In this document: positions 8,903 through 28,806 of the stretch, piece by piece
Layout of the letters: each line of letters opens with the position of its first letter
How positions within the stretch are numbered: the first letter of the stretch is position 1
Assembly: GCF_024055725.1 (NCBI RefSeq)
Contig: NZ_JAMXMX010000010.1
Location: 1 to 64,000, forward strand
DNA length: 64,000 nt
Source: Actinoallomurus spadix
GTDB lineage: Bacteria; Actinomycetota; Actinomycetes; Streptosporangiales; Streptosporangiaceae
Reading direction: 5' to 3'
Notes under the pieces: generated by a model
What the model was told of the DNA's origin: nothing
The model's database searches: none
What the model saw: the letters and a program-made list of their open reading frames with translations, nothing else
Position numbers and translations under genes: made by a program

Positions 8903-8911
8903 GAGGGCGCC

Positions 8912-9642: not shown

Positions 9643-9758
9643 TCGACCAGAACGCCGTCGGCAAGGTATGACCAGCTCAAGGTAGATCGTCTGCGGAAGC
9701 GTTGGGGTAGCGGGAGCTGGGCCGAGACGCTGGGGCAATAGACGTTCTTGGAGGGCGG

Positions 9759-9971: not shown

Positions 9972-10053
9972 GAACCCAGCTTCCGGGTCTTGGGCCGTTC
10001 CCACACGACCGGGATCGTCCGTTCCCAATGATCTGGCCGGCAATGTAGACCCA

Positions 10054-10070
10054 CACGGGACCCACCCGTG
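10054..10070. terminator. Small hairpin between convergent genes
   Basis: CACGGG and CCCGTG form a 6-bp stem with a 5-nt loop, 27 bp beyond the pPIWI-RE stop and about 80 bp beyond the convergent small ORF. A bidirectional terminator is plausible but there is no T-tract. Confidence 0.35.
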
Positions 10071-10096
10071 ACGCGACTGACTCATCCGCGTCAAGA

Positions 10097-12667
10097 TCAC
10101 GTCCCCGAGGACGAATCGGTGATCGTCGTCGGCAAGAGGTATTCCTCGATCTGTGCGGCGAGGTGCAGCGGCCACGGCAGGACGGTGCTGTTCCGCACGT
10201 ACGGTGCCGCGTCGCGGAGGTCGTGTGCGAGCGCTGCCCAGTGTTCGGGCTTGTCGCCGCTACCCTCTTGGATCCCGGCCACGAGCAACTCGATGAACTG
10301 AGGGTTCCACACCTGTGCCTTCGGTTTTGGCGCGACAGGCTTGCCGTCGTGTTCGGCCGACACGATCTTGGATACGCCCTTGAGCGCGCCCGAGTGAGTG
10401 CTGGGCTTGCCGGTGGTGCTGCCATAGACGCGGGGGAGCAGGAATCGCCACAGCCCCTTGGGCTGGCCGGTGTCGTCACCGCTGACGCCGTAGCACTCCG
10501 GGGTTTCCCCGTCCTCCTCCGTACGGACGCGGATGTGGCGCAGGCCGGGCAGCTCGGCGATGGGCCGAGGGGCGCTGCCGCCGATTCGGAGGGTGTCGAG
10601 TTCGATGCGGTTGTTGGCGAGGCTGCCCCACACGCTGCGCAGATTCTGCGCGTGGGTAAGCAGGAGCGTGTCGGGGTAAGCGACGATGGCTTCGCCGAGT
10701 GCGTCTTCGATGAACCGGGCAACGTCGTCCGGACCGCAGTTCAGGTCGGCGTGGACGTAGCGCTTCCCGATCTCGATGAGGCCGGTGTGAAGGGGTTGCC
10801 ATGACACCTCTGGCGCCCGGACCTGAACATACTGGCCGGTCGGGTCGATGAGTATGGCGACGGGTACCTGTCGGGTGACGCCCCAGATGCGCTTCTTGTT
10901 CTGGCGGATCATCCACAGGGCCAGCAGCGCCGGCTGTCGCACGAGCGTGTCGCGGGCCGGTGCCGGCAGCGGTGCCGGGCGCACGCCAAGCTGTCGGAAT
11001 AGGTCGTCAACGGCGGCGGCGAAGCGCTCCCGGTTTGGGTCGGACGGCGGCTTGCCCTCGCGTACCCGCGCGGGGCGGTTGGGATCGGCGACCGGTGTGA
11101 CGAACTGGCTGAGCCGTCCGCTGCACGCCAGCCCATGCCGGATGGCGAACTTCGGGTCGTCGGCGCGGCGCTGGCCTTGGTAGGCGTCCGGGTGGGCGAT
11201 CTCGACGAGGGCGACGGTCGGGTGCGGGGCGTTGCCGAGAGTCTGGGTGATGTGGTCGACGCGGTCCTCAACCGCGGCCTGCAGTCTGCGTCCGTTGCGG
11301 TCCAGGTCGGCACGGATCGTGGGTGTTTCCAGCCGGCGGATTCCGACGGTGAGGGGGCCGAGGTCGATGAGGGACTCGTGCTCGTCGAGCTGCTCAGCGC
11401 GTGGCAACGTGGCTCCGAGCCGGGTGGCAAGGCGGTCGAGAGCGTACTGGGTTGCGCGGTCAGTGTCGGTGAGCAGTTCCACGGTGAGCCGGGGGCCGAC
11501 GACCTTCCCGAGGTATCCCGCCGGGATGGTGCCTTCGCTGATCCCACTGAGGCCCTTGTAGATGGTGGTTTTCTCGCGCGGCAGCGCTGGGGCCGGGTGC
11601 AGGTGCGGAGCCAGCTCACTGATGACCCACTTCATCAACGGTTCGCGATCGGCGATGGACAGTCCGGCGCTGACCTTCTCCGACGAGAGCATGCCGGTGC
11701 TGTAGACGAGCGCGGCGGCGTCGCCGTGGCGTTGCAGGTATTCCAGGGGCTTGTCGGTGAGTTGCTGCGGGTCAGGGAGGCGGCTGAGGCAGCCGATCTG
11801 GTCGAGTACGCCTGCGAGGCTGTCGTCCCATCGGGGCAGGTAGCTGGTCTTGCCTTCGCTGTCGGTCACCTTGGTCAGCTTGATCTTGGCGATTCCGAAG
11901 TGCCGGGAGTTCTGCAGCCCGGTCAGATAGGGCACGGTGGGTGCCAGGTAGACCGAGTGGCCATGGTCGAAGGCCAATTTGCCGCGCACCGGCATCCAGC
12001 GTCGTACGCCGAACGAGAGGTAGATGAGTAGTTCGTTGCTTGTCGGCAGGGTCTGTGCGGTGATCCCGATCTTCACTGAGAAGGGTGTCTGGTCCTCAAC
12101 ACGCTCCGGTGGCCAGGACATGATCTCGGCGCCGTCGTCGCTGGGGCATCGCAGGAACCGCAGGCTGTTGTGGGGACACTGCGCGTTGGGCCGGGACAGC
12201 GTTGCGGCGATCTCCATCGGCAACAGGCGCATGGCGTGAGCGCGCTGATCCGTTGCGGCCAAGTTGAGGCGAACGGGTGTCCAGATGAGGTCGGAGGCGT
12301 GCAGTTGGGACAGCGTTGAGGAGATTTGTTCCGGTGCGCCCTTCTGTGCACGTACCCATGCGGTGACCACGTTGAAGATGGCTGCCGGGTTGACATCCCG
12401 GTAGGCGAGGAGCCAGTCCTGGTCGTCGTCGCTGCGGCCGGCGTAGGTCAGGGTGACGACGCAGTCGGGGACCAGAGCGGTGATGGCGTTGTTGAGTGAG
12501 GCGATCGGGATGCTGGCGACATCGCCGCCGCGCCGTGCCTTCGCGAGTCGGCGCAGCGGCTCCTTCCACCGGCCAGGGAAGCGCATGAGGTAGTAATCGC
12601 GTTCGATGGGGGCGGCGGGGTTGAGGCGTAGGGCGGTTACGGCCAGTTCGTCGTATCGGGGGGCCAT
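10097..12667 (-). CDS. pPIWI-RE family protein (prokaryotic PIWI/RNase H module)
   Basis: An 856-residue protein that I assign to the pPIWI-RE family described by Burroughs and colleagues. It has an N-terminal X-type domain (about 1-250), a middle region, and a C-terminal PIWI/RNase H fold from about residue 480. Candidate core strands are TVALVEIAHP (484-493) and VPVAILIDPTGQ (601-612); the segment RHIRVRTEEDGETPE (710-724) holds Arg and Glu residues of the kind that name the family. It would bind or cleave nucleic acid guided by RNA or an RNA/DNA hybrid. The start ATG directly abuts the helicase TGA. It is the last gene of the triad. Family assignment is from memory of domain order and neighbours; individual catalytic residues need an alignment. 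Confidence 0.8.
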   Translation of the reverse strand: MAPRYDELAVTALRLNPAAPIERDYYLMRFPGRWKEPLRRLAKARRGGDVASIPIASLNNAITALVPDCVVTLTYAGRSDDDQDWLLAYRDVNPAAIFNVVTAWVRAQKGAPEQISSTLSQLHASDLIWTPVRLNLAATDQRAHAMRLLPMEIAATLSRPNAQCPHNSLRFLRCPSDDGAEIMSWPPERVEDQTPFSVKIGITAQTLPTSNELLIYLSFGVRRWMPVRGKLAFDHGHSVYLAPTVPYLTGLQNSRHFGIAKIKLTKVTDSEGKTSYLPRWDDSLAGVLDQIGCLSRLPDPQQLTDKPLEYLQRHGDAAALVYSTGMLSSEKVSAGLSIADREPLMKWVISELAPHLHPAPALPREKTTIYKGLSGISEGTIPAGYLGKVVGPRLTVELLTDTDRATQYALDRLATRLGATLPRAEQLDEHESLIDLGPLTVGIRRLETPTIRADLDRNGRRLQAAVEDRVDHITQTLGNAPHPTVALVEIAHPDAYQGQRRADDPKFAIRHGLACSGRLSQFVTPVADPNRPARVREGKPPSDPNRERFAAAVDDLFRQLGVRPAPLPAPARDTLVRQPALLALWMIRQNKKRIWGVTRQVPVAILIDPTGQYVQVRAPEVSWQPLHTGLIEIGKRYVHADLNCGPDDVARFIEDALGEAIVAYPDTLLLTHAQNLRSVWGSLANNRIELDTLRIGGSAPRPIAELPGLRHIRVRTEEDGETPECYGVSGDDTGQPKGLWRFLLPRVYGSTTGKPSTHSGALKGVSKIVSAEHDGKPVAPKPKAQVWNPQFIELLVAGIQEGSGDKPEHWAALAHDLRDAAPYVRNSTVLPWPLHLAAQIEEYLLPTTITDSSSGT

Positions 12668-15600
12668 TCAGCGATCTCCCATGGTGGTCAGGGCCTGGAA
12701 CAGCGGCTGGTAGAGCGCCTGAACCAGATGACGGTCAGGGTCGGTATTAGTGGGGTCGAAGTAAGGAGTGAGCACGTCGCGCATGCCGTACAGCAGACTG
12801 GTGCTCGCGTCGTCGAGGTCGGCGTCGGTCTCACTGCGGCGGGCGGTGAGCGGCGCGAAGGCGGCGTCGCAGAAGTAGACCTTCGCGGCCTGGCCGCCGC
12901 GCAGCAGCCGGCCGACGACCTGCCAGATCGTCACCAACTGGGTCCAGGCGACGCGGTTACGTTCATCGTCGCCGAGCTGGCTGTAGGCGACGAGGGCGTG
13001 CAGCAACCGCCGCCACTGGCGCTGTGCTGCGCGTCGCCGTTGGTTACCCGCAGTAAGCAGGCGTTCGTGTGTCGGACAGTCGTCGATCGCACGTGGCCGC
13101 AGCTGTTGGAGGGCGTACTGGTTGATGCGCTGCGTGACGTAGCTGAGGTCTTTCGGTCGCGGGTGGGGGCGCACGAGGAAGAATGCGGCACCGATGGCGG
13201 CGATCCCCGCGGTGTTAAGGATGTTGTGCCCACGCTCTACGGCAAGGATCGGTGCGACCAGCAGCCACGCCTCGTCAGTGCCGAAGTCCGCAATGTCACC
13301 GCGGCGCAGCAGGTGAGAGCCGTCCCAGCCGGTCTCCTGCTCGTCGTCGCCAACGAGGCAGCGGATCTGTCCCTTCCAGGAGGACTTCTGTCGTAGGAGT
13401 TCATCGGTAACGGTGCGGGCTTCGGCGTAGCTGCCGACCAGCAGCATGATCTTCTGGCGGCCGGGTGGCAGGTAGGCGCGCTCACGTTCGAGTCGGTTCG
13501 GGCGGCCCGGGCCGGCGCCTGGCCGGGTCAGGGCCTTGACCATTCGCCGTAGTGCGTCGCTGCGTTCGCTGCCGTAGCGGCCTGAGACCCAGATGGGTGT
13601 ACTCCGCTCGCCTTCGTGTTGGATATCCAGCGTGAACGTCGTCTCGGCGATAGCAGCGAGCTTTTCTGGCGATGGGCACAGAATCGCGCCGACAGGGACG
13701 TCTATGTGGTAGCGAGGTGAGGTGCCCGCCCAACTGGTGCCAGACAACAGCAACACGTTGGGGCCTGGGCCGTCGGCGGGGAACAGGTCCGGTAGCCCGA
13801 CGAGCAGGGCGCGGCCTACGCCGGTGTAGCGGAAGAAGCGGAATTCGCCCAGCTGTCCGTCGCGCCGACCGGGCTCGTCCTCGATGTACTGGAACCCGAG
13901 CACGTTGCCCATCGGGGATTCCGGGACCGTGACCGCGAGGTCGCTCGGCGGTCTGCGTACCTCCGTTGGCAGCGTGTCGAACATGTCCAACTCGGCTGCG
14001 ACCTCCGGCCAGATGGCGAGCATCAGGTTCAGCCGGTGCGCCATCACGGCCACTGCGATGGCCAGCTCGAGCCGCCAGACGGTGCGGTCGAGATCGGCGG
14101 GCGCGATCTTCCTTCCTTCGACCAGCTCCTGGTCGTTCAGGTCGGTAAGCCACTGCCGAACGTCCTCCTCACGCGCCTCTTCCTCGGTGTCGGAGAGGTG
14201 CGTCTCCGCCAGCGCGGCCAGTCCTCCGGCAACATCGCCGGACGCACCGGTTGGATCGTCGACGAAGGCGTCGAACTGCGCACGCAGTAGCAGGTAGAGC
14301 GGATCCTCATCCCAGCCTGAAGGAGGCCTGCGTCCACTGGGCCCGGTGTACCCGGCCCAGTCTTTGGCCAGGCTGTCGAACAGCGCCCACGCGGTGAAGT
14401 AGTCGGGATCGAGCCAGGTCAGGACCGGCCTGCCGGGCCGGACCCGGTCACGCTGCAGCAGCTGGTAGATGATGTCAGCGGCAGTACGGGCATGGTTGAG
14501 CGCCAGGATGAACCGGCGGATCTGCCGCGAGCTGACCGGAGCGCGGCCGACGGCCCGGAGCTTGGCCTGTACCCGAGCCCCGATCTCGTCGATCCACGCT
14601 TCCTCGCTCGGGCCGAGCAGCACCTGCGCGCTGGCGAACATCTCATCGAGGTTCGCTTGTACCTGATCGGCTTCATCGACCAGAACCAGGTCGCTGCGGC
14701 GCCACGCCGCCTCCAAGTACCGCATCTGATCGTGGCTCAGCGGCGACGGTACCGGGGTGTGCACCAGGCTCCAGGGAGTCGCGATCCACACGTTGGCCTG
14801 CACGAGCTGACGCGCAGCCTCGTGCCGCTGGCAGCGATGCCATAGCGGACACGTGCGCCGTGGCCTATCCCGCCATCCGTCCGCTGGGGCGTCCGGGTCG
14901 GCTTCGATCAGGTGCTGGCAGGGTGCCTCACGAACCTCCAACGGGCTGGCGGCCTCGCGGAGCGCGTCGAGCGGACACGCCGTGCTGACCAGGTCGAATC
15001 CGTAGGGCTTGATAGGCAGGAGCCGGCCCGGCGGCGGTGGCTGAAGCCGGTGCAGTCGCTCCGTGTGCCGGGTGCGGTTCCGTCCCATGATCGGAGCGGC
15101 GAGCACGCCGTCGTACCAAGACAGCTCGTGCGCCATGCGCAGCGCCGCCGAATTGTCGCCTACCACAATGGTGACGCGACGTTTGTGCTGCGCTGCCCAG
15201 GTAGCCAGGACCTTCACCAAGGTGCTCTTGCCGACACTGACCAAACCGACCAGATGCAGCATCTGGTCGATGCGAAGAACGGCCGCGTCTTTGAAGGTGT
15301 CGTCCGCCATCCGCACCTGCAGCGTGACGTCCATCAGGCGCTCTTCCCAGCGCTGTGGACTGCGCTCGGCCTTCCAGTCGGCCTCATCCATACCCGCCGC
15401 GGTCTTCACCAGCTCCGGCCAGGGGACCTCGATCAGCTCTCGGGGCCGCACCGCCAAGTCGTGCAAGGTAGGGGCTGGCGCGGCAGGAAGGTCGTCGGGC
15501 ACCGTCACCCCGATGCCTCGCGCTGTGGAGCTCATCCTGTACGTGCCGGGCGTGGCGAGTCGTACGGCAGTAGAAGCGAACGGCAGCGGGTCGGTGAGCA

Positions 15601-16012
15601 ACTGTTCGTACCATTCCCACCGTTCGGCCGCGACACGGCACTGCCGACGGCGCAACGGTCGACCAATCGGGTCCAGGCAGTAACCACGAACCTCCTCGGG
15701 GACCGACAGGTAGGCTCGTAGCACCCCGTCCCATCCGTAGGGACGCTGCGTACGCCACAGCAGGGCCCGCGCGTTCGCGAGCCGGACCGATGCGTCCGGC
15801 GGCGGGTTCGGCACGGCGTCCCAGAGCGCGCGATAACCGTCGAGCAACGCGGGCACGCCTCTGGCCGCCTGGCCGTCGGCGACGGTCTCCGACAGGTAGA
15901 GGCACAGCTCCGTGTCCATGAGCCGGCCCGGCGCAGGCTGTTGCCCAGTCGGGGTGTAGTGGCCCTCAAGCGCGCGGGTGAACCAATCCCGTGCCGTCTT
16001 GATCTGCCTCAT
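12668..16012 (-). CDS. pPIWI-RE-associated DinG/XPD-like superfamily 2 helicase
   Basis: A 1114-residue helicase. Walker A is GLVSVGKST (about 256-264), Walker B is DEAD (446-449, in LVLVDEADQ), a later SGTS motif matches motif III/V-type loops and Q-x2-G-R-x2-R (QVVGRLLR) is motif VI. Cysteines at about 346, 365, 388 and 394 lie between Walker A and B, as in the Fe-S site of XPD and DinG, so an iron-sulfur cluster is likely. ATG 16012 is chosen over an upstream frame start because it overlaps the REase stop as ATGA and the upstream residues are low-complexity Gly/Pro. In known pPIWI-RE systems this helicase is predicted to unwind RNA/DNA hybrids or R-loops. Confidence 0.85.
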   Translation of the reverse strand: MRQIKTARDWFTRALEGHYTPTGQQPAPGRLMDTELCLYLSETVADGQAARGVPALLDGYRALWDAVPNPPPDASVRLANARALLWRTQRPYGWDGVLRAYLSVPEEVRGYCLDPIGRPLRRRQCRVAAERWEWYEQLLTDPLPFASTAVRLATPGTYRMSSTARGIGVTVPDDLPAAPAPTLHDLAVRPRELIEVPWPELVKTAAGMDEADWKAERSPQRWEERLMDVTLQVRMADDTFKDAAVLRIDQMLHLVGLVSVGKSTLVKVLATWAAQHKRRVTIVVGDNSAALRMAHELSWYDGVLAAPIMGRNRTRHTERLHRLQPPPPGRLLPIKPYGFDLVSTACPLDALREAASPLEVREAPCQHLIEADPDAPADGWRDRPRRTCPLWHRCQRHEAARQLVQANVWIATPWSLVHTPVPSPLSHDQMRYLEAAWRRSDLVLVDEADQVQANLDEMFASAQVLLGPSEEAWIDEIGARVQAKLRAVGRAPVSSRQIRRFILALNHARTAADIIYQLLQRDRVRPGRPVLTWLDPDYFTAWALFDSLAKDWAGYTGPSGRRPPSGWDEDPLYLLLRAQFDAFVDDPTGASGDVAGGLAALAETHLSDTEEEAREEDVRQWLTDLNDQELVEGRKIAPADLDRTVWRLELAIAVAVMAHRLNLMLAIWPEVAAELDMFDTLPTEVRRPPSDLAVTVPESPMGNVLGFQYIEDEPGRRDGQLGEFRFFRYTGVGRALLVGLPDLFPADGPGPNVLLLSGTSWAGTSPRYHIDVPVGAILCPSPEKLAAIAETTFTLDIQHEGERSTPIWVSGRYGSERSDALRRMVKALTRPGAGPGRPNRLERERAYLPPGRQKIMLLVGSYAEARTVTDELLRQKSSWKGQIRCLVGDDEQETGWDGSHLLRRGDIADFGTDEAWLLVAPILAVERGHNILNTAGIAAIGAAFFLVRPHPRPKDLSYVTQRINQYALQQLRPRAIDDCPTHERLLTAGNQRRRAAQRQWRRLLHALVAYSQLGDDERNRVAWTQLVTIWQVVGRLLRGGQAAKVYFCDAAFAPLTARRSETDADLDDASTSLLYGMRDVLTPYFDPTNTDPDRHLVQALYQPLFQALTTMGDR

Positions 16013-17121
16013 GCCCTCGCCTCCGCCTCTTTGCGGACTGCGCGGAGGAACTCCGCCTCGGATACCGCCACCACCCGTTGGCCCGGCCGCACCTGCGGAC
16101 ACGCCTTGCGCAACCGTGCGACATACCGCGGGTGCGCCTTCACCTGCTCCCGTCCGATGACGATGAATGCCTTCTCCGCTCCCTCAGGGACGGTGAACAA
16201 CCGTTCCCGAAGCCGGCGGGCCAGCCGCACCGGGTTACGCCACGCTTTGATGTCGACCACCCAGGGGCGCTCCTCGAAGGCAGAAAGATCGCAGGCGTCG
16301 AAGTCGGGCCACAGCGCGACCGGTACGCCCATCGCCGCCACCAAGTCGGCGATGCGAAGCTCGGCACGGCCCGGCGCGGTCACAAAGGTGCGCAGCTCAC
16401 GCCGCAACCACCAGGCGCCTTCACTGGCGGGATAGTCGGTGCCGGGGCTTCCAGGCGCCGGGCACGACTCGTCGCCGCAGACCCAAGCGCGGCCATCGTC
16501 CAGCGGCAACCGCAACCCGTTGCACCCGCTGCAGGTGCGCACCACGCCATCGGCCACAGCCTCCGGCGGTACGGGTTCGTAAGCTTGCCGGACCTCGTCG
16601 GCCAGCAGCGCCAAATCCGATGTGCCCAACCGCGTATCGAGTTCGAGTGCGCTGATCGCCGGCTGCCTGATCAAGAGCTCACGGAAGGCGACGTAGGAGT
16701 GGGGCGCGTCTGCCGCCCGTGCCTTATCCATGACTGCGCGCATCAACGTGTTCTCGCGGATCTCGCCCTCGACATCACCGCGGAGACTGCCCAACTCCTC
16801 GCAGGTCCGCGTGGGACGGCCGTAGGCAAGCAGGGATTCGTCCGGATCCACGTCAGCATCAGGGAGGGAGATCTTCCAGGCTCCGAAGGCATTTCCGGCG
16901 AGGTGGAGCAGCTCGACCACGCTCGCCGGTGCCGGCGCGCCCTGATGCCAGGCGAGCAGGGTGAGCCGGTTAAGCGCCATCTGCAGATTCGCCGGGTACG
17001 GCAGGCGGAAATTCTCGTTCGAGGTGGCTCGCTGCGCGTAATCCACGATCCCGCTGGCCAGCTGCGCCACCGTGATCTGCTGATCAGGAAGCCAGCGCGG
17101 AAGGGGTGATGAATCAGTCAA
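16009..17121 (-). CDS. pPIWI-RE-associated restriction-endonuclease-fold nuclease
   Basis: A 370-residue protein, first gene of the triad. A four-cysteine zinc ribbon is seen at C197, C200, C215 and C220. Next comes a PD-(D/E)xK-type nuclease core: WPDFDACDL (271-279) and WVVDIKAW (287-294), giving D...D-x-K. The N-terminal part is helical. It should supply the DNase activity of the system. It starts at TTG 17121, with GAGAGG five bases upstream; no ATG or GTG gives a sensible alternative near the N-terminus. It overlaps the helicase start by 4 bp. Confidence 0.8.
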   Translation of the reverse strand: MTDSSPLPRWLPDQQITVAQLASGIVDYAQRATSNENFRLPYPANLQMALNRLTLLAWHQGAPAPASVVELLHLAGNAFGAWKISLPDADVDPDESLLAYGRPTRTCEELGSLRGDVEGEIRENTLMRAVMDKARAADAPHSYVAFRELLIRQPAISALELDTRLGTSDLALLADEVRQAYEPVPPEAVADGVVRTCSGCNGLRLPLDDGRAWVCGDESCPAPGSPGTDYPASEGAWWLRRELRTFVTAPGRAELRIADLVAAMGVPVALWPDFDACDLSAFEERPWVVDIKAWRNPVRLARRLRERLFTVPEGAEKAFIVIGREQVKAHPRYVARLRKACPQVRPGQRVVAVSEAEFLRAVRKEAEARA

Positions 17122-17271
17122 AATGACCTCTCGTTGCCGATGGCGACGATTCCCTAGAATCGCATAACTGGAGGTTTAGCGTGGGTCTTACTGGCGAAGA
17201 TTTACCGTCGCCCAAAAGTGACGATTATGGATTTTCCTAATTTGGCGGGAAGTGGTCTCGGGGGGTGGCTT
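17122..17271. promoter_or_regulatory. AT-rich upstream region of the pPIWI-RE triad with a dyad
   Basis: This 150-bp gap between the RNase H gene stop and the triad is clearly less GC-rich than its surroundings. It contains the dyad CGATTC-CCTA-GAATCG at 17147-17162, 26 bp before the nuclease start, a plausible operator or promoter element for the triad. A 19-codon plus-strand ORF (17181-17240) with GGAGG six bases before its GTG is also present but may be chance. Confidence 0.45.
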
Positions 17272-18345
17272 TCATGCTGCTCGACCAATGGGAGTTGAGG
17301 TAGCGAGCCGAGTGAACCGACTGCGGATCTCGGCGAGTTCGCCGGCGATGGCGTGTGAGCTGACGCCGTTTGCTTCCCGGATGGCCAGGGCGGCCAAGCG
17401 GTCGGCTGCCTCATTGAGGATGTGGCCGTGATGACCCTTGACCCAGGCGACCTTGATCCGGTCGCGCTGAGCGTAAGCCTGGCGCATCCACGGCAAGGGG
17501 TGTCGGCTGCGACGCTGAACCTCGTAGACGCCGTGTTCCAGCACCCGGTTGATCAGGTCGACGCACCCTTGGTTGTCGGAGAGGATGAGCAGGTCGCGGT
17601 CGGCGAGTTCCGGAGCGACCGCGGCGCGGCAGATCGCGATCATCTCGGCCTGGTGGATCTCAGCGGTGACGGTCAACCCGAAGCCGACCTCACCGGTCTC
17701 GGCGATCCAGCCGTATCCGCAGGCTTCGCCGCCCCGACCGGAGGCGTCTGTGGCGACGACCAGCCGCCCTTCGGAGTCGAACGATCCCTGATAGCCGTGG
17801 ATCAATTCGTGGCGGACTTCGGTGGCGCACGTGTGATGGGCCTCCACGGTCAGCGCCTCGACGTACTCACGCAGCCGGGAGTCGAACTCTGCCACGCACT
17901 CGTTCGCGACCCGTTGACGAAGGATCAGTGCATCGAGCTCCCCGTGGATGGTCCGCAACCGGGTGGTCATCGCCGGCGTGCGCAGTTCCGCGTGGGCGGC
18001 GAGGCGAGCTTCCAGGCGGGCGACGTCTGCGTGAGTGTCGTGAACGGCACGGGCGAGGTGGATAACCCACCGTTCGACGACAGCGTCGTCGGCAAGATGG
18101 GGATTGGGTGCGATGAACGCGTCGCGGTAAACCTCGTATGCGAAGTTCTCGGAGTAAAGGCCGTCTAGCTCCGCTACTGGTCCGGTCAGCGAATCATCGA
18201 TCCAACCGTGGCGCACCGCCCACCGCCATTTCCCTTGCTTCGGGATGGTCGTGCTCAGATTTGTGAAGCCGCGACGATGCATCACGGTCTCGATTAGGTG
18301 GCCTTCGGTATCGGACCAGCACACCTCACTGTGGATCTTGTTCAT
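17272..18345 (-). CDS. RNase HI-fold protein next to the pPIWI-RE triad
   Basis: A 357-residue protein. The C-terminal half is an RNase HI domain with all four acidic residues in place: D200 (VVATDASG), E234 (HQAEMIAI), D257 (LILSDNQG) and D315 (NEAADRLA), plus the GHHG loop before the last Asp. It should cut the RNA strand of RNA/DNA hybrids. The N-terminal 190 residues are not recognised. ATG 18345 follows GGAGG by 4 nt. It is on the same strand as, and 150 bp upstream of, the pPIWI-RE triad. Since that system is predicted to act on RNA/DNA hybrids, a functional link is attractive but inferred. Confidence 0.8.
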   Translation of the reverse strand: MNKIHSEVCWSDTEGHLIETVMHRRGFTNLSTTIPKQGKWRWAVRHGWIDDSLTGPVAELDGLYSENFAYEVYRDAFIAPNPHLADDAVVERWVIHLARAVHDTHADVARLEARLAAHAELRTPAMTTRLRTIHGELDALILRQRVANECVAEFDSRLREYVEALTVEAHHTCATEVRHELIHGYQGSFDSEGRLVVATDASGRGGEACGYGWIAETGEVGFGLTVTAEIHQAEMIAICRAAVAPELADRDLLILSDNQGCVDLINRVLEHGVYEVQRRSRHPLPWMRQAYAQRDRIKVAWVKGHHGHILNEAADRLAALAIREANGVSSHAIAGELAEIRSRFTRLATSTPIGRAA

Positions 18346-18422
18346 GGCGCCTCCGCAGCTCGCAGGGGACGTGGGTTGGTTTGGACAGTAGCGACATCGC
18401 ACGCTCTGCTCGCATATCTCAA

Positions 18423-18442
18423 CCGATAACTGGGGTTATCGG
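18423..18442. promoter_or_regulatory. Palindrome between divergent RNase H and rmuC genes
   Basis: CCGATAAC and GTTATCGG form a perfect 8-bp dyad around TGGG. It lies 78 bp before the RNase H start and 145 bp before rmuC, so it could bind a regulator of either. The half-site GGGGTTATC recurs at about 20258-20266, just upstream of the next gene. Confidence 0.4.
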
Positions 18443-18587
18443 CCGAGTGACGACTGGATGGCGCTGATCCGTCTTATCGTCACCGTTGCCGTACCGGCCC
18501 AGCCTCGCGAGGGCCCCGGATCACGGCGACCGCATCTTCCCCAATCGGCCTTATATCGGCCGGCGCGGCTTCCCGGAGGTATCGACC

Positions 18588-20252
18588 ATGAACACGCTGA
18601 CTTTGATGGCTGTTGCCCTACTTTCCGGCCTTACCTTTGGCGGTCTCGGCTACCTGATCGCCCGAACCCGTCTCGGCGCTGAACACCGACGGTTCGAGGC
18701 TGACCTGAAGGTCGCCGAGGAGCGATACCGCCAGGCCGGCCAGCAGATCGAACAGCTGCGCGCCGAGCACGAAGAGGTGAAGACGCGTGCGGATCGACTG
18801 GAGCAGCTGCAGACCGCACAGGCCACCGAGCGTCGCGCCCTGGACGAACGGCTTGGACGGCTCGACACAGAGCTGGCGGCCGTGCGGGAACGAGAGCGCG
18901 GCGCCCACGCAGAGGCCGAACGGTTGCGCATCGGCGTGACGAACAAGCAGAACGAGAATGAGGCTCTCGTCCGGGATCTGCGAGCCCGCGAGCAAGAGAT
19001 CGCGGAACTGCGCGCGCTCGACGGGCGGTATCGCCAGGAGGTCGCGGAGTACAAGAAACAGCTGGCTGGTCTTGAAGCGCAGCAGCAGGCGCTGCGCGAG
19101 CAGGCGGTCGCCCTTGATGCGGCCCGTAAGGAGCTTGATCAGTCCCGGGAGGACAACAACCGGCTGCAGGCCGAAAGCTTCCGTGCCTTGGCGACGGAGA
19201 TCCTGGAAAAGTCGCAGGATAAGCTCGTCACCGCCGCCGACGGAAAGCTCAGCGCGACGAGCACTGCGGTACGCGAGCGGTTGGAACAGCTGGACCAGTA
19301 CCTACGGCAGTTCGACCAGCAGCGCACGTCGGCGGATACCGACCTCAAGCACCAGATCACCCGGTTGGCCGAGGATTACGCCGAGGGCCGGCAGCAGACA
19401 CGTGCCCTGGTGGAGGCACTTCGCAAGCCACAGGTCCGCGGCGCCTGGGGCGAGATGCACCTGCAGCGAGCGGCCGAGCTCGCCGGGATGCACGAGCACT
19501 GCGACTTCACCACGCAGGTCCAGGTCGACGGGGACGAGGGCCGACTCCGTCCGGACATGGTGGTCCACCTAGCGGGCGGCAAGCATGTGGTCGTCGACGC
19601 GAAGGTCTCCCTGGCGGCGTTCCTGGCCGCCACCGAGGCGACCGACAACGCCGAGCGGGAGCGGTACTGGGCCGAGCATGCAAAGCAGCTCCGCAAGCAC
19701 GTCGACACGCTGGCGGGCAAGGAGTACTTCCGTAAGGTCGCTGGAAGCCCGGAGTTCGTGGTGATGTACCTGCCGGGCGAGGCCCTCTTGCAGCCGGCCG
19801 TCGAGAAGGATCCGCAGCTGCTGGAGTACGCCGTGAGCAAGCGTGTCTTCATCGCCGGGCCGACCACCCTTATCACGATGCTGCGCACCATCGCCTTCGC
19901 TTGGACCCAGGCCGCGCTGCAGGACAACATGCGCCAGGTCTACGAGCTGGGCCGGGAGCTGTACGAGCGGATCGGGAAACTCGGTGAGCACCTGGCCTCC
20001 CTCGGCGCGAGCATCGATCGTTCGGTGACCGCCTACAACCGGGCAGTCGGTTCGCTGGAGAGCCGCGTGCTGGTGACGGCCCGCAAGTTCCGTGCGCTCG
20101 AGATCGTCGAGGGCGCCCTCGAATCCCCGAAACCGACGGAACAAGCGGTACGCCGACTGGGCGCCGCCGAATTGGTGGCATCCGCCGAAGCCGCGCAAAC
20201 GGTTCGCGCACTCCCCGAATCGACTACAGACGAAACCACTGAGATCGCCTGA
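18588..20252 (+). CDS. rmuC: DNA recombination protein RmuC
   Basis: A 554-residue RmuC protein. One N-terminal membrane helix (about residues 4-24) is followed by a long coiled coil (about 30-240). The conserved RmuC nuclease-like domain comes next (RGAWGEMHLQRAAELAGM, then LRPDMVVHLAGGKHVVVDAK with the PD-(D/E)xK-type acidic and lysine residues). ATG 18588 is preferred, with GGAGGT 7 nt upstream; the longer frame begins in non-coding DNA. RmuC in E. coli limits recombination at inverted repeats. Here it leads a run of plus-strand restriction genes, so a role alongside the type I system is likely. Confidence 0.9.
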   Translation: MNTLTLMAVALLSGLTFGGLGYLIARTRLGAEHRRFEADLKVAEERYRQAGQQIEQLRAEHEEVKTRADRLEQLQTAQATERRALDERLGRLDTELAAVRERERGAHAEAERLRIGVTNKQNENEALVRDLRAREQEIAELRALDGRYRQEVAEYKKQLAGLEAQQQALREQAVALDAARKELDQSREDNNRLQAESFRALATEILEKSQDKLVTAADGKLSATSTAVRERLEQLDQYLRQFDQQRTSADTDLKHQITRLAEDYAEGRQQTRALVEALRKPQVRGAWGEMHLQRAAELAGMHEHCDFTTQVQVDGDEGRLRPDMVVHLAGGKHVVVDAKVSLAAFLAATEATDNAERERYWAEHAKQLRKHVDTLAGKEYFRKVAGSPEFVVMYLPGEALLQPAVEKDPQLLEYAVSKRVFIAGPTTLITMLRTIAFAWTQAALQDNMRQVYELGRELYERIGKLGEHLASLGASIDRSVTAYNRAVGSLESRVLVTARKFRALEIVEGALESPKPTEQAVRRLGAAELVASAEAAQTVRALPESTTDETTEIA

Positions 20253-20338
20253 CAAAGGGGGTTATCAGTCGAATCGATACCCGAAAGCGGCTGTGAGCTT
20301 TAGAGTCTGATGCCCGGTCTACGAGAGGAGGTGCTGAG

Positions 20339-22432
20339 ATGACCGATCCTTACAGAAGTGCACAACTGATGTCGATGACCGAAATCGCGGAACTCGCGAA
20401 CGTTCGCCGACCGGTCGTCAGCACCTGGCGTAGGCGGCACGACACTTTTCCGCAGCCGGTGGCCGGTGACCAGGCCCATCCCCTTTTCGACGCCAAGGAG
20501 ATCGCCGCCTGGCTGATCGAGACCGGGCGAGCGGACGCCCGCAGGATCGAAGGCGACCTGCAGACCTACACGCTCGCCCGGCTCGGCGCCCAGATGCCAC
20601 CCCGGACACTGATCGCCGCGCTCACCGCGCTCATCTGCCTGCGCCACCTCACCGACGACGAGCTTCTCGACGATGGAACACCCGCGCTGATCACCCGACT
20701 CCGCCGGCGCGCCCAGGAGGCCGATCCGGAGGACCGTCTCCTGCTGGCCGAGATCACCGAACTGCGCGCCTCCTGGCTGCCTCGCATCGCGGACGAGCTG
20801 ATCGAGGCCGCGTGGAACACCCAGAACGCCTTCGAACGCGTGATGGAGGTCCGGGACCGCCTCGGCGCGACGGAACTGTCCGTCGACCGGATCGACCCCG
20901 CACTGTCCGCCCTCGCCGCGGCACTCGCCGATCCCGCAGGCCAGGCCGATCGTGACGGCATCGCCCGGATCGCCGACCCCACCGCCGGACCCGGTGACCT
21001 CCTCCTCGCCGTGGCCGACTCGCTCCGCGAAGACCAGGACGTACGGCTCACCGCCTGCTGCCCCGATCCCTACCTGGCCCGGCTGACCCGCCGCCGCCTG
21101 ACCGTTCGCAGCGTTGCCAGCGACTTCGAAGTCCGCGCCGACGCGAGCGGCTCCCTGGAGGACGCCAACGTCATCGTCACGCAGCAGCCGTACCGCCCCA
21201 GTGAGGACCGCACCGCTGAACAGACACTCGGGGCACTGAACGACCTGTCCCTCCAGCTCACCACCGGTGCGACCGCCGTGGTCGTGGCTTCCGCCGACGC
21301 CATCGGCAGGCTCGACCCAACGAGCGAAGCCGCCGTCCTCCGTAAAGAACTCCTGATGTCCGGATTCATCAAGGCGATCGTCCGGCTGCCGGGCGGGTTA
21401 ATGCCCTACCGCCCCGGCTATGAGGTGGCCCTCTGGGTGATGAGCGCGGACTACAGCTCACCCCTGCGCGGCCGCATCCTGCTCGCGGACGTATCAGACC
21501 GCACGCTGACCCGGCCGGTGATCGACGCGCTGGCCACCGACGTGCTCACCTGGCGGCAGGAGGGTTTCGACCCGAACGCGCGCAGCCGCGTCCACGCGAT
21601 CGCCGCGCCGGTCGCCGCCCTGGTGAACACGCCGGGTCCGCTGTCCCCCCGCTACCTGCCGACCGAACGCGAGCCCCACCAGGACATCCCCGAACGGGTG
21701 GCTCGTGCCATGGAGCTGGAACGCGTGCTGAGCGACGTACGGCCCGAACGGCCCGCCCTGCGCAGCGACCTCGCCGTTCGCGTCCACCCGGCGCCACCCC
21801 GAACCGCCACGATCGCCGAGCTCACCCGCGGCGGCCGTGCCCGCACCAACCGACTCTCCCTGCGCAACGGCACCAGGATCGCGGCCGAGCTCATCCGGTC
21901 CAGCAACGATCCGAACTGGAAATCGCTCTCCTACCCGGTCCTCGGCGCCCCGGAACTGCTCGAACGCTCGACTCCCGGCAACCGGCGCATCGACCGGATC
22001 GCCTTCGAAACCACGTACCCCAAGGCACAGCGGAGCCTGCCCGGCGACCTGATCATCACCACCGTTCCCCAGCCGGCCGTACTGGTCGATCACGACGGCT
22101 ACTCGGCGGTCGAGTTCCCCGCACGCATCCTCCGCATCACCGAGCGGGGCGCCGAGTACTTCACCCCCCGTGTTCTGGGCGCCCTGCTCACCCGAACCGG
22201 CCGAGTCGACGGCGCGATCCGCCCCGTTCAGCGCCTCGACGAGCTGCGCCTGCCCCTGCTGCCACCCGGCGAGCTGGCGCATTTCGACCGGCTGCTGGCC
22301 GAGCTGGAGAAACGACGCCGCCAGGCGACGGACGAGCTGAACGCCATCCGCGAACTGCTCAGCATCGCGGCGACCGGCCTGTCCGACGGAACCCTGACCT
22401 TCGCCGGCAACCGAAGAACAACAACTCAATAG
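20339..22432 (+). CDS. HTH protein with degenerate N6-methylase-like core and HsdS-like tail
   Basis: A 697-residue protein with an AGGAGG ribosome binding site. Residues 10-35 form an HTH (MTEIAELANVRRPVVSTW). The middle resembles HsdM-type N6 adenine methylases but with altered motifs: DPTAGPGD (213-220) where DPxxGSGG is usual, and VTQQPY (280-285) where NPPF/Y is expected. The C-terminal third resembles an HsdS half (target-recognition-like domain, then coiled coil LLAELEKRRRQATDELN). Loss of the NPPY Asn and Pro suggests it binds DNA but does not methylate. It lies 15 bp upstream of hsdM and may regulate or modify specificity of the type I system. The fold assignment is my inference from motif spacing. 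Confidence 0.65.
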   Translation: MTDPYRSAQLMSMTEIAELANVRRPVVSTWRRRHDTFPQPVAGDQAHPLFDAKEIAAWLIETGRADARRIEGDLQTYTLARLGAQMPPRTLIAALTALICLRHLTDDELLDDGTPALITRLRRRAQEADPEDRLLLAEITELRASWLPRIADELIEAAWNTQNAFERVMEVRDRLGATELSVDRIDPALSALAAALADPAGQADRDGIARIADPTAGPGDLLLAVADSLREDQDVRLTACCPDPYLARLTRRRLTVRSVASDFEVRADASGSLEDANVIVTQQPYRPSEDRTAEQTLGALNDLSLQLTTGATAVVVASADAIGRLDPTSEAAVLRKELLMSGFIKAIVRLPGGLMPYRPGYEVALWVMSADYSSPLRGRILLADVSDRTLTRPVIDALATDVLTWRQEGFDPNARSRVHAIAAPVAALVNTPGPLSPRYLPTEREPHQDIPERVARAMELERVLSDVRPERPALRSDLAVRVHPAPPRTATIAELTRGGRARTNRLSLRNGTRIAAELIRSSNDPNWKSLSYPVLGAPELLERSTPGNRRIDRIAFETTYPKAQRSLPGDLIITTVPQPAVLVDHDGYSAVEFPARILRITERGAEYFTPRVLGALLTRTGRVDGAIRPVQRLDELRLPLLPPGELAHFDRLLAELEKRRRQATDELNAIRELLSIAATGLSDGTLTFAGNRRTTTQ

Positions 22433-22447
22433 ACAAACGGAGAACCA

Positions 22448-24058
22448 ATGCCCCCCCGAAAGAAAACACCCCCCGGCCAGGGCGAACTGCCCGGCGTATC
22501 GACGATGACGGAGCTGAAGGACATCCTCTGGAAGTCCGCCGACAAGCTCCGCGGCTCCATGGACGCCGCCCAGTACAAGGACTTCGTCCTCGGCCTCGTC
22601 TTCCTCAAGTACGTCTCCGACTCCTTCGAGGAACGCCGCCGCCAGATCCGCGACGAACTGATCGCCGACGGCGTACCCGAGTCCCGGCACGAGTCCTTCC
22701 TCGACGACAAGGACGAGTACGACCGCGAAGGCATCTTCTGGGTGCCCGAAGGCGCCCGCTGGGCCGACCTCGCCGCCCAGGCCAAATCCGGCGCGATCGG
22801 CCAGCTCATCGACGCCGCGATGTACGCCATCATGAAGGCGAACGCCTCACTCACCGGCGTCCTACCCAAGATCTTCAACCGGGACAACGTCGACCAACGC
22901 CGCCTCAGCGAACTCGTCGACCTGATCAGCGACGCCCGCTTCACCGGCCACGACGGCAAATCCGCCCGCGACGTCCTCGGCGAGGTCTACGAGTACTTCC
23001 TGGAGAAGTTCGCCCGCGCCGAAGGCAAGCGCGGCGGCGAGTTCTATACACCGTCCAGCGTCGTCAAGGTCCTCGTCGAGATCCTCGAACCGTACAAGGG
23101 ATCGGTGTACGACCCGTGCTGCGGATCAGGCGGCATGTTCGTGCAGGCCGAGAAGTTCGTCCTCAGCCACCGTGGCAAGCGCGACGACATCGCCATCTAC
23201 GGCCAAGAGGCCAACGAGCGGACCTGGCGGCTGGCTAAAATGAACCTGGCCATCCACAGCCTCCGCGGCGACCTGTCCCCACGCTGGGCCGACACCTTCT
23301 ACGAGGACAAGCACCCCGACCTCAAAGCCGACTACGTGATGGCCAACCCGCCGTTCAACATGTCGGACTGGTACCGCAAGACCGACGACCCCCGCTGGCG
23401 CTTCGGCACCCCACCCGCAAGCAACGCGAACTTCGCCTGGATGCAGCACATCATCTCCAAGCTCGGTACGCGTGGCAGCGCCGGCATCGTCATGGCCAAC
23501 GGCTCGATGTCCTCCAAGCAGTCCGGCGAAGGCGAAATCCGCGCCGCCATGGTCGAAGCCGACCTGGTCGCCTGCATGGTCGCCCTACCGCCGCAGCTCT
23601 TCCGTACAACTCAGATCCCCGCCTGCCTGTGGTTCTTCGCCAAAGACAAAAGCTCACGAGGCGGCCACACCGACCGTCGAGGCCAGGTCCTCTTCATTGA
23701 CGCCCGAAACATGGGCACGATGCTCGATCGCACCGAGCGCATCCTCACTGACGACGACATTGCCAAAATCGCAGGTGCGTACCACGCCTGGCGCGGCACC
23801 CGCAGCGCCCGCGACGCCGGTCTGACGTATGCCGACGAACCCGGCTTCTGTTACTCAGCCACTCAGGACGAGATCCGTACTCAGGACCGCATCCTGACCC
23901 CTGGCCGCTACGTCGGCGCCGCCGAAGTCGACGACGGTGACGACGAACCCATCGCCGACAAGATCGAACGCCTCACCAAAGAACTCCTCGGCCACTTCGA
24001 CACCTCATACCGCCTTGAGCAGGCCATCCGCACCAAACTGGAGCGCATTGATGTCTGA
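22448..24058 (+). CDS. hsdM: Type I restriction-modification system, methyltransferase subunit HsdM
   Basis: A 536-residue HsdM with an N-terminal helical domain (ELKDILWKSADKLRGSM), SAM motif I (DPCCGSGGMF, about residue 220) and the N6-adenine catalytic motif NPPF (about residue 300). It should methylate adenine in the sequence chosen by HsdS and form the M2S methylase. It overlaps hsdS by 8 bp. Confidence 0.95.
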   Translation: MPPRKKTPPGQGELPGVSTMTELKDILWKSADKLRGSMDAAQYKDFVLGLVFLKYVSDSFEERRRQIRDELIADGVPESRHESFLDDKDEYDREGIFWVPEGARWADLAAQAKSGAIGQLIDAAMYAIMKANASLTGVLPKIFNRDNVDQRRLSELVDLISDARFTGHDGKSARDVLGEVYEYFLEKFARAEGKRGGEFYTPSSVVKVLVEILEPYKGSVYDPCCGSGGMFVQAEKFVLSHRGKRDDIAIYGQEANERTWRLAKMNLAIHSLRGDLSPRWADTFYEDKHPDLKADYVMANPPFNMSDWYRKTDDPRWRFGTPPASNANFAWMQHIISKLGTRGSAGIVMANGSMSSKQSGEGEIRAAMVEADLVACMVALPPQLFRTTQIPACLWFFAKDKSSRGGHTDRRGQVLFIDARNMGTMLDRTERILTDDDIAKIAGAYHAWRGTRSARDAGLTYADEPGFCYSATQDEIRTQDRILTPGRYVGAAEVDDGDDEPIADKIERLTKELLGHFDTSYRLEQAIRTKLERIDV

Positions 24059-25262
24059 TCTCGTGAAGCTCGGCGACTATGTTGAACTCCTGACCGGATT
24101 TCCATTTAAGAGTTCTGGATATTGTGGCGCTAATGAGCCAGGAATCCGCCTCTTGCGTGGTGATAATATCGGCCAGGGGAGAATTCGCTGGGAAGGGGTC
24201 AAGTTTTGGCCTGCAGGCAACCATGCGGCCTACCTGCAATATCAATTGCAGGTAGGAGACGTAGTTCTAGCGATGGATCGTCCATGGATTGAAGCTGGGC
24301 TAAAATATGCAGAAATCCGCCCCGAGGATATGCCGAGCCTTCTGGTCCAACGCGTAGCGCGATTGCGTGCACTGCCAGGATTGAATCAAAAGTATCTCAA
24401 ATATCTAATCGGCAGTAAACCATTTATCGATTACATTCTCGGAACACAGACGGGAACGGCGATTCCTCATATCAGTGGCCGTCAAATCAGGGATTTCGAG
24501 TTCGCCCTGCCTAGCACTCACACCCAGAGGGCGATCGGCGATATTCTCGGCACGCTCGACGACAAGATCGCCGTCAACGACCGTATCGCTACAACGTACG
24601 AGAAAATCCTCCGCCTAGAATTCGAGGCTCTTAAAGTCGATGTGGAGCCAGAGCTGCAGGATTCCATTCCTGCATCTGACGTGATCGAATTCAATCCTCG
24701 CCTTCGAGTGTCAAATTCTGTAGATGCTGTATACCTTGAAATGGCGGCCCTACCGACAACAACGGCTCGTGTCGATGATTGGGCTAGGCGCCCGCCAAAG
24801 TCGGGAACGCGCTTCATGAACGGTGATACCGTCATGGCTCGTATCACGCCATGTCTAGAGAATGGGAAGACCGCATACATCGACTTCCTCGAAGAGGGAG
24901 AGGTTGGCATAGGATCCACCGAGTTCATTGTCATGCGGACTCGTGCGCCCTACCCAACGCACCTATCATATTTTTTGGCGAGAAGCCCGCGCTTCCGGAG
25001 TCATGCAATTCGCAATATGGTCGGATCATCTGGACGTCAACGCGTCTCTGCCATGTCCCTCACAGACTTTCCGCTCAGGCGGCCACACGAAAATGACCTC
25101 GCTAGATTTGGTGAGGCTACGTCAAAGGCTTTTGCCCATATGAAGTCGATCGGTTTGGAGTCTAAGACGCTCGCTGAGCTACGGGACACGTTGCTACCGA
25201 AGTTGATGTCGGGGGGAATTCGGGTTCGGGACGCGGAGAGGCTCGTGGAGGACGCGGCATGA
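24051..25262 (+). CDS. hsdS: Type I restriction-modification system, specificity subunit HsdS
   Basis: A 403-residue HsdS with two target-recognition domains, each followed by a conserved helical spacer (TQRAIGDILGTLDDKIAVND after the first). Start ATG 24051 overlaps the hsdM stop. Base composition drops well below that of its neighbours from about 24,060 to 25,180, with many A/T third positions. This is expected for specificity genes exchanged by recombination. The stop overlaps hsdR as ATGA. Confidence 0.9.
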   Translation: MSDLVKLGDYVELLTGFPFKSSGYCGANEPGIRLLRGDNIGQGRIRWEGVKFWPAGNHAAYLQYQLQVGDVVLAMDRPWIEAGLKYAEIRPEDMPSLLVQRVARLRALPGLNQKYLKYLIGSKPFIDYILGTQTGTAIPHISGRQIRDFEFALPSTHTQRAIGDILGTLDDKIAVNDRIATTYEKILRLEFEALKVDVEPELQDSIPASDVIEFNPRLRVSNSVDAVYLEMAALPTTTARVDDWARRPPKSGTRFMNGDTVMARITPCLENGKTAYIDFLEEGEVGIGSTEFIVMRTRAPYPTHLSYFLARSPRFRSHAIRNMVGSSGRQRVSAMSLTDFPLRRPHENDLARFGEATSKAFAHMKSIGLESKTLAELRDTLLPKLMSGGIRVRDAERLVEDAA

Positions 25263-28200: not shown

Positions 28201-28441
28201 ACTGCTGATGGGGGAGGGCAAGCTCGCCGACATCGCCCGCGATCTGGTCAGGGCGGTGCGGAACAACCTGTCCACCGACTGGACCGCCCGCGACGACGTG
28301 CAGGCCAAACTCCGCTCCATCATCAAGCGGCTGCTCGCCAAGCACGGCTACCCGCCCGAGGAGGAGAAGGACGCGATCGACAAGGTCATCCGCCAACTGG
28401 AGACCTTCGCTGACGAGTGGGCACCTGGGGCGGATTCGTAG
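25259..28441 (+). CDS. hsdR: Type I restriction-modification system, restriction subunit HsdR
   Basis: A 1060-residue HsdR. An N-terminal PD-(D/E)xK nuclease (RFDVVLYLNGLPVAIFELKK, about residues 140-160) precedes a superfamily 2 translocase with Walker A (HTQGSGKS, about 300), DEAH (VDEAHRSHYD, about 411) and TGTP motifs. A helical C-terminal domain binds the methylase core. All motifs look intact, so with hsdM and hsdS this is a complete system. Confidence 0.95.
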   Translation: MSGYSEADLENDVLEVLAELGWEPREGKHIAKGSGERESWSELIIPGRLRESIVKINPELPTASVDEVMDLVMSPKSQDVRSENFRIHEYLTRGIRGISFTDEYGAEQHPTIHLIDRADPYNNDFLAVRQVTVVDGDTRRRFDVVLYLNGLPVAIFELKKAGDEHATPETAHAQLIDYVRDVWQAFRCNVICLASDGLRAKYGTAFTPYNHFAPWNVDDEGKPVEQPAETWEESELVLTLYGLFDPRRFVELLDGYVAFAQSDAGLLKRLAKPHQYFAVSKAIDKTVEAVRSNGKAGVVWHTQGSGKSMEMELYSNQVLKHPSLGNPTIVVITDRTDLDDQLFDGFNASELLPEKPVQVTSREELRTELTNRRTGGIFFTTLQKFGRTKEEREAGKAHPLLSDRRNIIVIVDEAHRSHYDSLNGYARHLRDALPYATLIAFTGTPISEAERDTRQVFGDYIDIYDLTRAVNDGATVPVYYESRLIPVSLPAGADAEKLDEEADRATEGLDDSERRRVEQAAAVLNAVYGAPARLKKLAADVVAHWEARSQAMKEFIDAPGKAMIVCNTREICANLYQEIISLRPDWHSDAIDKGKIKVVYSADRRDSDLLKAHHLRPSQHKAIQRRMKDPDDTLELIIVKDMLLTGFDAPPLHTLYLDRSMRGAQLMQTLARVNRTFRNKQDGLMVGYAPLHENLLAALAEYTSDDRQQKPMGKDLEEALAKVRDLVDVIGNILLADYPWRERLRSGGKRAYRETVRGATNHLRDPKNPANQVADPEPTLKERFTREAARLARFYALCQSSGELNDLRDDIAFFREVRVWVVKFDAAERQSEGRPIPADVELYLKQLTAGAIEAGDVTDLFSAAGLERPDLSNLDDEYIKRMQEAKNPALAIEALRRLVQQEMRKVTKHNIVRQQSFSDRLLELMRKYTNQNLTAAEIIAELVAMAREVAADADRGKRFTPELTSDELAFYDAVAAKDRVKLLMGEGKLADIARDLVRAVRNNLSTDWTARDDVQAKLRSIIKRLLAKHGYPPEEEKDAIDKVIRQLETFADEWAPGADS

Positions 28442-28730
28442 CCTCCCCCCAGACCGCCGGCGTTTGGCGAACAATCACCGGCTGGCCTGCGCAGGTGGCC
28501 GGCCCGGATCCCGTCTGCGGCGACGGCGGCCGTTCCACGTCGTGCTGCGGTCGCGACGCCAGTGTCAGCGCGGTCGCCCGGCGGATAGTTATGCAACAGG
28601 CAGCACACCGCCGGATGGCCGTCCTGCACAAGATCGGAACAAACGAGCACCCAGGGAGCACCCGCGGCCCCGAAACGATCATTACAAGATCCGCCGGACC
28701 GGAGAAACCGCAGGTCAACGGCCAGGTGAG
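28442..28730. other. Gap between hsdR and tRNA-Lys
   Basis: 289 bases with no supported gene or clear hairpin. This is where the right boundary of the defence island would fall if it entered at the tRNA-Lys 3' end. Confidence 0.4.
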
Positions 28731-28806
28731 TGGTAGGGCGCCTGGGACTCGAACCCAGAACCTATGGATTAAAAGTCCACAGCTCTGCCAATTGAGCTAA
28801 CGCCCC
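28731..28806 (-). tRNA. tRNA-Lys (anticodon TTT), CCA encoded
   Basis: The minus strand folds as a full cloverleaf. The 7-bp acceptor has G-T wobbles at both ends; the D arm is GCTC/GAGC; the anticodon stem has loop CTTTTAA; the T arm is CTGGG-TTCGAGT-CCCAG. Discriminator A is followed by genomic CCA (28731-28733). The 3' end points towards hsdR, so the defence island lies exactly where an element integrating at a tRNA 3' end would lie. Confidence 0.95.

Follow-up and report, generated by a model that had tools for sequence, protein, structure and literature searches.

The DNA analysed here, a 64,000-nucleotide stretch of Actinoallomurus spadix (contig NZ_JAMXMX010000010.1, positions 1 to 64,000; the whole stretch is called the window), carries at 10097-17121 a complete three-gene pPIWI-RE system, and its identity as a typical member of the family described by Burroughs et al. 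in 2013 is confirmed by Pfam and PADLOC family models that match all three proteins. The segment is filled by three open reading frames (ORFs) on the minus strand, which encode a protein with a restriction endonuclease domain (the REase), a helicase and a PIWI protein:

16009..17121, minus strand: REase gene (pPIWI_RE_Y, zinc ribbon and PD-(D/E)xK REase), 370 amino acids (aa), TTG start; gene 1 of the triad
16009..16012, minus strand: ATGA overlap of the REase stop and the helicase start
12668..16012, minus strand: DinG/XPD-like helicase, putatively of the iron-sulphur (Fe-S) type, with N-terminal pPIWI_RE_Z; 1114 aa from the ATG at 16012
10097..12667, minus strand: pPIWI-RE protein (X, MID and RNase H-fold PIWI domains), 856 aa

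An original prediction, made from the letters of the sequence, had placed three genes here linked by ATGA and TGA-ATG; the ORFs and both junctions were seen, and it was right about the genes and about the name of the family. The PIWI start follows the helicase stop directly (TGAATG), and the TTG start of the REase at 17121 is preceded by GAGAGG. A mechanical reading of the ORFs gives an alternative helicase of 1144 aa from a GTG at 16102; the start is most likely the ATG at 16012, giving 1114 aa, rather than this GTG, because the ATG overlaps the REase TGA and has a GGAGG just upstream. Helicase residue numbers below are those of the 1144-aa ORF, from which 30 is subtracted for the 1114-aa form.

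The family itself is already known, with models for the three genes in Pfam (PF13111/PF18157/PF13032, PF18155, PF18156/PF18154) and in PADLOC (Ppr). In Pfam the REase protein matches pPIWI_RE_Y (5.5e-26) and pPIWI_RE_REase (1.1e-23), the helicase pPIWI_RE_Z (1.7e-30) and the 856-residue protein pPIWI_RE_X, MID_pPIWI_RE and RNaseH_pPIWI_RE (5.8e-67, 9.2e-25 and 4.2e-53), all above cut-off; at 1.1e-23 to 5.8e-67 across the triad, these matches are not due to chance. The best PADLOC models are PprRE (3e-58), PprDinG (1.9e-207) and PprPIWI (1.7e-129), and none of the three proteins matched an NCBIfam model at E <= 0.1. All three genes are under purifying selection, each having a ratio of nonsynonymous to synonymous substitution (dN/dS) of 0.119-0.191 against the related loci L019 and L020. 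A scan for promoters and terminators gave no promoter-like site and one terminator-like site, which lies within a gene, fewer than in shuffled sequence.

A scan of named genomes for relatives found 86, of which the best 80 were kept, giving 78 loci; with four from further genomes and the window these form 83 neighbourhoods, in which L011/L063 and L014/L055 are each the same locus counted twice and from which L012 and L015 were omitted as second copies of L062 and L019. Both partner genes, helicase and REase, lie no further than 12 kb from the PIWI gene in 75 of the 83. Of the remaining eight, L022, L030, L065 and L018 hold a fragment or are truncated by the end of a contig, the REase match of L013 is weaker and falls outside the cluster, L090 has a helicase but no REase match, and L026 and L029 have neither. 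As a separate observation, the pPIWI-RE proteins of two Acrocarpospora loci (L026:9068-12520 and L029:9053-12565) are extended in frame at the N terminus by about 311-316 aa; this extension is 64% identical between the two species, and no Pfam domain was found in it.

The motifs of the two partner proteins are intact. The Walker A, DEAD box and four cysteines that had been read in the helicase are conserved across the 77 rows of its alignment: G286 in 76 rows, G291 and K292 in 77, S293 in 73 and T294 in 75; D476, E477 and D479 in all 77 and A478 in 73; C376, C395, C418 and C424 in all 77. In motif VI, Q1061, G1064 and R1065 are kept in 76 rows and R1068 in 75. The four cysteines probably bind an Fe-S cluster. 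Against the PDB the helicase profile weakly matches E. coli DinG 6fwr (E 0.029) at profile positions 388-428, the cysteine region, with generic P-loop proteins scoring above it; no general Pfam helicase model matched the helicase, and three AAA/P-loop models fell below cut-off. The zinc ribbon and D...D-x-K noted earlier in the REase are likewise borne out, C197, C200, C215 and C220 of the ribbon being kept in 75-76 of 76 rows and E254, D275, D290 and K292 of the nuclease motif (E254, D275, D290-I-K292) in 74-75, the window included. An AlphaFold model of the REase (26 sequences) reached a pLDDT of 87.2, and its top fold matches in the PDB, all weak, include Cdn1, Hjc, EcoO109I, HindIII and the Hef nuclease, among unrelated folds; these five we take to be PD-(D/E)xK nucleases.

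The PIWI/RNase H fold claimed for the 856-residue protein had been staked on a profile search and a structure prediction, and it came through both: besides the three pPIWI-RE Pfam domains, the AlphaFold2 model (pLDDT 86.1, pTM 0.89; alignment of 45 sequences, window first) has Piwi/Argonaute chains as its top Foldseek matches in the PDB, the best at 1.5e-15. No PADLOC pAgo model matches the protein at E <= 0.1, its three PADLOC matches at that threshold being all PprPIWI or RNaseH_pPIWI_RE. Its catalytic residues were compared with those of PsPIWI-RE, the assayed P. stutzeri member, in which D525 and D610 are catalytic and R639 and E718 form the R/E pair (PMC10991935; this and the other papers are cited here from excerpts), using an 81-row alignment drawn from the 83 neighbourhoods with sequences below 700 aa or containing a stop excluded. 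R713 (80 of 81 rows) and E793 (76 of 81), 80 residues apart, are, judged by the spacing in that paper, probably the absolutely conserved R and E of the family, and E721 (80 of 81) is another candidate for the E. In the model beta-1 spans 580-589 and beta-4 spans 667-672. Asp occurs at beta-1 residues 584-589 in none of the 81 rows, and residue 672 is His in the window and in 63 rows overall, Asp in 2 and Glu in 7. Because beta-1 reads G-[VIL]-H or G-L-W in divergent rows, and beta-4 reads V-D-G in some of them, the catalytic positions are placed at W585 and H672, whose spacing is 87 as against 85 for D525/D610. The window protein therefore appears to lack the catalytic Asp pair, with W585 and H672 as the putative equivalents, and the loss of this pair would make the REase, rather than the PIWI protein, the likelier DNA cutter of the system. 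D608 had been suspected as the beta-1 Asp since the window clade shares it (D or E at this position in 15 of the 81 rows), and was dropped because in the model it lies where beta-2 ends.

The block beside a tRNA-Lys gene in which the triad forms one cassette is replaceable, since matching flanks in a sibling genome, G399, enclose different DNA:

10032..28582: variable defence block holding the triad, 18.5 kb; replaced by a different 21.4-kb block in G399
28731..28806, minus strand: tRNA-Lys, bordering the block on the right (ARAGORN, Rfam tRNA)

To the left, window 48-10031 aligns to G399:C15 3193-13201 (94.8%); to the right, window 28583-29341 (82.4%) and 29320-34618 (94.0%) align to G399:C15 34633-35434 and 35524-40823. 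The slot of the triad is taken in G399 by other DNA (C15 13202-34632; L106/L107), whose first large genes, on the strand of the triad and at the edge where it lies in the window, encode a short Argonaute (best match pAgo_I, 4.8e-169, with PprPIWI far weaker) and its REase partner (Aga, 1.3e-141), a pair presumed to be SPARDA-like. These are followed by a DEDDh protein, a helix-turn-helix (HTH) methyltransferase, a kinase/SNF2-like protein (scanned over the first 756 of its 2075 residues), a DpdE-like helicase and a DrmMI-like methyltransferase. PF13032 has no match in G399, and of eight window block proteins compared, only the HTH/methyltransferase (HTH/MTase) protein and HsdM have similarity in the G399 block, at about 27%. 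Three other siblings (L108-L110), compared around the tRNA-Lys, do not share the left flank. No convincing repeat was found in the window either as an att repeat of the tRNA-Lys or as 10-base repeats at the block edges, and the tRNA-Lys is the only Rfam family in window 9000-30000. With flanks 94-95% identical and a different block between them, G399 offers a natural comparison strain.

Taken together, it is more likely than not that the triad is a cassette of an exchangeable defence block in which the PIWI protein acts as a non-cutting sensor, the helicase as an opener and the REase as the cutter of the invader. The pPIWI-RE protein would bind a short guide or an RNA/DNA hybrid and would recruit or license the Fe-S DinG-type helicase; this would open, or move along, R-loop-bearing DNA, and the zinc-ribbon REase would then cut the exposed invader DNA. 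We infer in this scheme the loss of PIWI cutting, the sensing of a guide or hybrid, the formation of a complex, the cleavage of DNA and the role in defence. A number of points weigh against it. PsPIWI-RE, which is also encoded in a dinG/REase cluster, itself cuts nucleic acids through D525 and D610, and its deletion raised ciprofloxacin sensitivity and affected cell division, with no phage test reported in the excerpts (PMC10991935). The placing of W585 and H672 relied on the order of the strands, on spacing and on sequence alignment, without superposition or a both-Asp positive control; such a control was sought in 18 further stretches (nine PIWI rows, then nine more together with L016) and failed because none of the added rows has Asp at the presumed beta-1 position. 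A Glu at 588, next to the presumed catalytic position, occurs in 12 of the 81 rows. The PIWI sequence profile found no Argonaute in the PDB, so that the fold assignment depends on the structure prediction and the Pfam models, and the REase model has no PDB fold match at E <= 0.001. L026 and L029 possess a pPIWI gene but show no helicase or REase match in the 10 kb upstream, and the block comparison consists of one sibling with both flanks.

It is possible that the triad serves chromosome maintenance rather than defence, in replication termination, decatenation or R-loop removal as was proposed for the P. stutzeri member. The deletion phenotype of PsPIWI-RE fits such a role, as does the implication of DinG in R-loop resolution (PMC11981726). 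However, this is unlikely for two reasons: the distribution of PF13032 is patchy within the genus (3 of 8 genomes) and the family (19 of 120), and G399 has a different defence set at the same place. Alternatively, the main effector could be the pPIWI-RE protein itself, as an active slicer guided by RNA, and helicase and REase would then serve to make guides or to open the target. PsPIWI-RE does use RNA guides on DNA and DNA guides on RNA (PMC10991935), and the 80 residues between R713 and E793 compare with 79 between R639 and E718. Nevertheless, W585 and H672 at the presumed catalytic positions, the absence of a beta-1 Asp from every row, the beta-2 location of D608 as the Asp near beta-1 and the intact REase motif leave this a poor prospect.

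A further neighbour has to be considered as a possible fourth component:

17272..18402, minus strand: protein of 376 aa with an RNase HI domain, encoded 150 bp upstream of the REase gene (Pfam RNase_H 7.7e-11)

This protein, which finds RNase HI chains in the PDB by sequence (best E 0.00048), is encoded on the same strand and in the same block as the triad and could remove RNA from hybrids that the triad makes or senses. Such a four-gene system is very improbable, however, as no homologue (phmmer, E <= 1e-4) occurs in any of the 78 related loci, no other copy at E <= 1e-15 is present in the 120 sampled family genomes, where its own genome alone is positive, and the gene is absent beside the nearest triad, L015/L019. 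Matches in five plasmid records cover 33-39% of the protein, and no phage record matched. The counts from loci and genomes ruled it out as a fourth subunit, and it is treated as a passenger rather than as part of the system.

Many relatives do carry additional genes. A PD-(D/E)xK gene, for which PADLOC already has a name (PprPDDEXK), adjoins the REase in 59 loci, L016 included. None stands beside the window REase, where the upstream gene is that of the RNase H protein, and the window sits in a PDDEXK-free clade of the tree (11 rows). Within 1 kb upstream, 30 of the 59 loci have a divergent Ser/Thr kinase gene, and in 26 of these 30 a methyltransferase-cluster gene lies no more than 1 kb from the kinase (25 genomes, L011 and L063 being one). 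At L011, L063 and the 24 other loci the core is preceded by the PDDEXK, divergent Ser/Thr kinase and HTH-type N6-MTase-family genes, whose order is constant while the outer flanks vary. Anywhere within 12 kb, 30 of the 83 neighbourhoods contain the triad together with PDDEXK, a kinase and a methyltransferase-family gene; the kinase and methyltransferase clusters are single-linkage, with an unrelated window kinase falling in the former and the HTH/MTase and HsdM genes causing the window to be counted as methyltransferase-positive. A methyltransferase related to that of these loci (E <= 1e-40) is found in 144 of 199 genomes of the G161 genus, which marks a broad family; one lies within 15 kb of at least 11 of the 72 PF13032 places listed, and 10 of these belong to the 13 that score best.

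In the excerpts of Burroughs et al., the triads have an REase without a methylase (PMC3702460), and no description of a kinase or methyltransferase at pPIWI-RE loci was recognised in the open literature searched, subscription papers and supplements being outside its scope. Given that the triad and a short Argonaute share a chromosomal slot in two sibling genomes of this genus, and given the 26 actinobacterial loci with an HTH-type adenine methyltransferase and a Ser/Thr kinase in fixed order, it is suggested, tentatively and with more doubt than confidence, that pPIWI-RE systems work as restriction modules, exchangeable and modification-aware, whose nuclease-dead PIWI does no more than sense. 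The methyltransferase-linked loci point that way and would run counter to the 2013 argument that a system without methylase tells self from non-self by RNA/DNA hybrids; together with the kinase, they bear on how a pPIWI-RE system would spare its own DNA.

With the window's own genome counted in each of the first three samples, PF13032 is present in 3 of 8 genomes of its genus, 19 of 120 of its family (18 over cut-off) and 6 of 396 across the phylum; of 199 genomes sampled from the genus of G161, 58 have it. The tree groups the window with an Actinomadura locus (83% identity), and the window's clade of 11 rows, which includes Micromonospora, Salinispora, Verrucosispora and Acrocarpospora, has a support of 100. 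Relatives occur in 7 of 72,556 plasmid records, all below 60% identity; among viral contigs three stretches matched a pattern and none was a relative, in a scan that reaches close relatives only. A second genome of the window's genus holds a divergent pPIWI-RE triad with PDDEXK (L016:10238-18882), which lies outside the 83-neighbourhood cluster and whose PIWI is undetected by the window PIWI (phmmer, E 1e-3).

The remainder of the block is made up of the following genes:

18486..20252, plus strand: RmuC-family protein (Pfam RmuC 2.3e-92; PADLOC RTasRmuC 4.7e-51)
20339..28441, plus strand: type I restriction-modification (R-M) cluster (HTH/methyltransferase-like, HsdM, HsdS, HsdR)
20339-22432, plus strand: HTH/methyltransferase-like protein, first gene of that cluster
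22448-24058, plus strand: HsdM
23937-25262, plus strand: HsdS
25259-28441, plus strand: HsdR

No homologue of the RmuC-family protein was found in the 78 related loci. The HTH/methyltransferase-like protein has QQPY at the place where an NPPY-type motif is presumably expected, and is for this reason perhaps a degenerate methyltransferase; relatives stand ahead of HsdMSR at L046 (phmmer 4e-101) and, more weakly, at L023 (8e-20). Elsewhere in the window, a PIN-domain protein (36739-37137) and a protein whose Phd/YefM match falls below cut-off (35587-36054) are possible toxin-antitoxin parts, a ParA-like ATPase with two uncharacterised neighbours (42552-46453, minus strand) has a weak PADLOC match only, and a tRNA-Ser called by ARAGORN at 8446-8541, within a GC-rich coding region, is likely false.

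The pPIWI-RE triads are a further branch of the prokaryotic PIWI proteins, for which one biochemical paper was found in the open literature searched (PMC10991935), in line with the earlier remark that the family has seen little experimental work; as far as their excerpts go, PMC7641849 concerns eukaryotic Piwi and PMC10573157 is a review. Three features are worth following: the apparently dead PIWI beside an intact REase and helicase, the occupation of one slot by the triad in the window and by a short Argonaute in the sibling, and the variants with methyltransferase and kinase. With intact helicase and REase motifs and a PIWI that is predicted to be non-cutting, this compact operon is well suited to testing cleanly which of its subunits acts as the nuclease.

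Compared with known systems, the window matches the triads of Burroughs et al. in the order REase, DinG-like helicase and pPIWI-RE, in genes that overlap or abut, in the zinc ribbon before the REase, the Fe-S helicase and the conserved R and E, and in having no methyltransferase within the triad (PMC3702460). The same paper put forward the attack on invading DNA through RNA/DNA hybrids as a hypothesis and found the catalytic residues kept only in a subset. Nothing basic differs, the window being set apart by a PIWI that seems to lack the Asp pair and by a type I R-M cluster in the same block. As in P. stutzeri DSM4166, pPIWI-RE follows dinG in a cluster that also has a gene for a restriction enzyme, and the R/E spacing is 80 here and 79 there; PsPIWI-RE, however, has D525/D610 and cuts, whereas the window PIWI appears to have neither Asp at positions placed without aligning the PsPIWI-RE sequence (PMC10991935). 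The PADLOC Ppr loci with PprPDDEXK, from Streptomyces and others (e.g. L011 and L063), share the REase-DinG-PIWI core and in many cases add a divergent kinase and an HTH-N6-MTase, whereas the window clade is without the PDDEXK gene. The short Argonaute and its REase-APAZ partner, in the same slot in G399, likewise pair a PIWI-family protein with a nuclease, although this Argonaute belongs to a different PIWI family and has another partner than the window PIWI.

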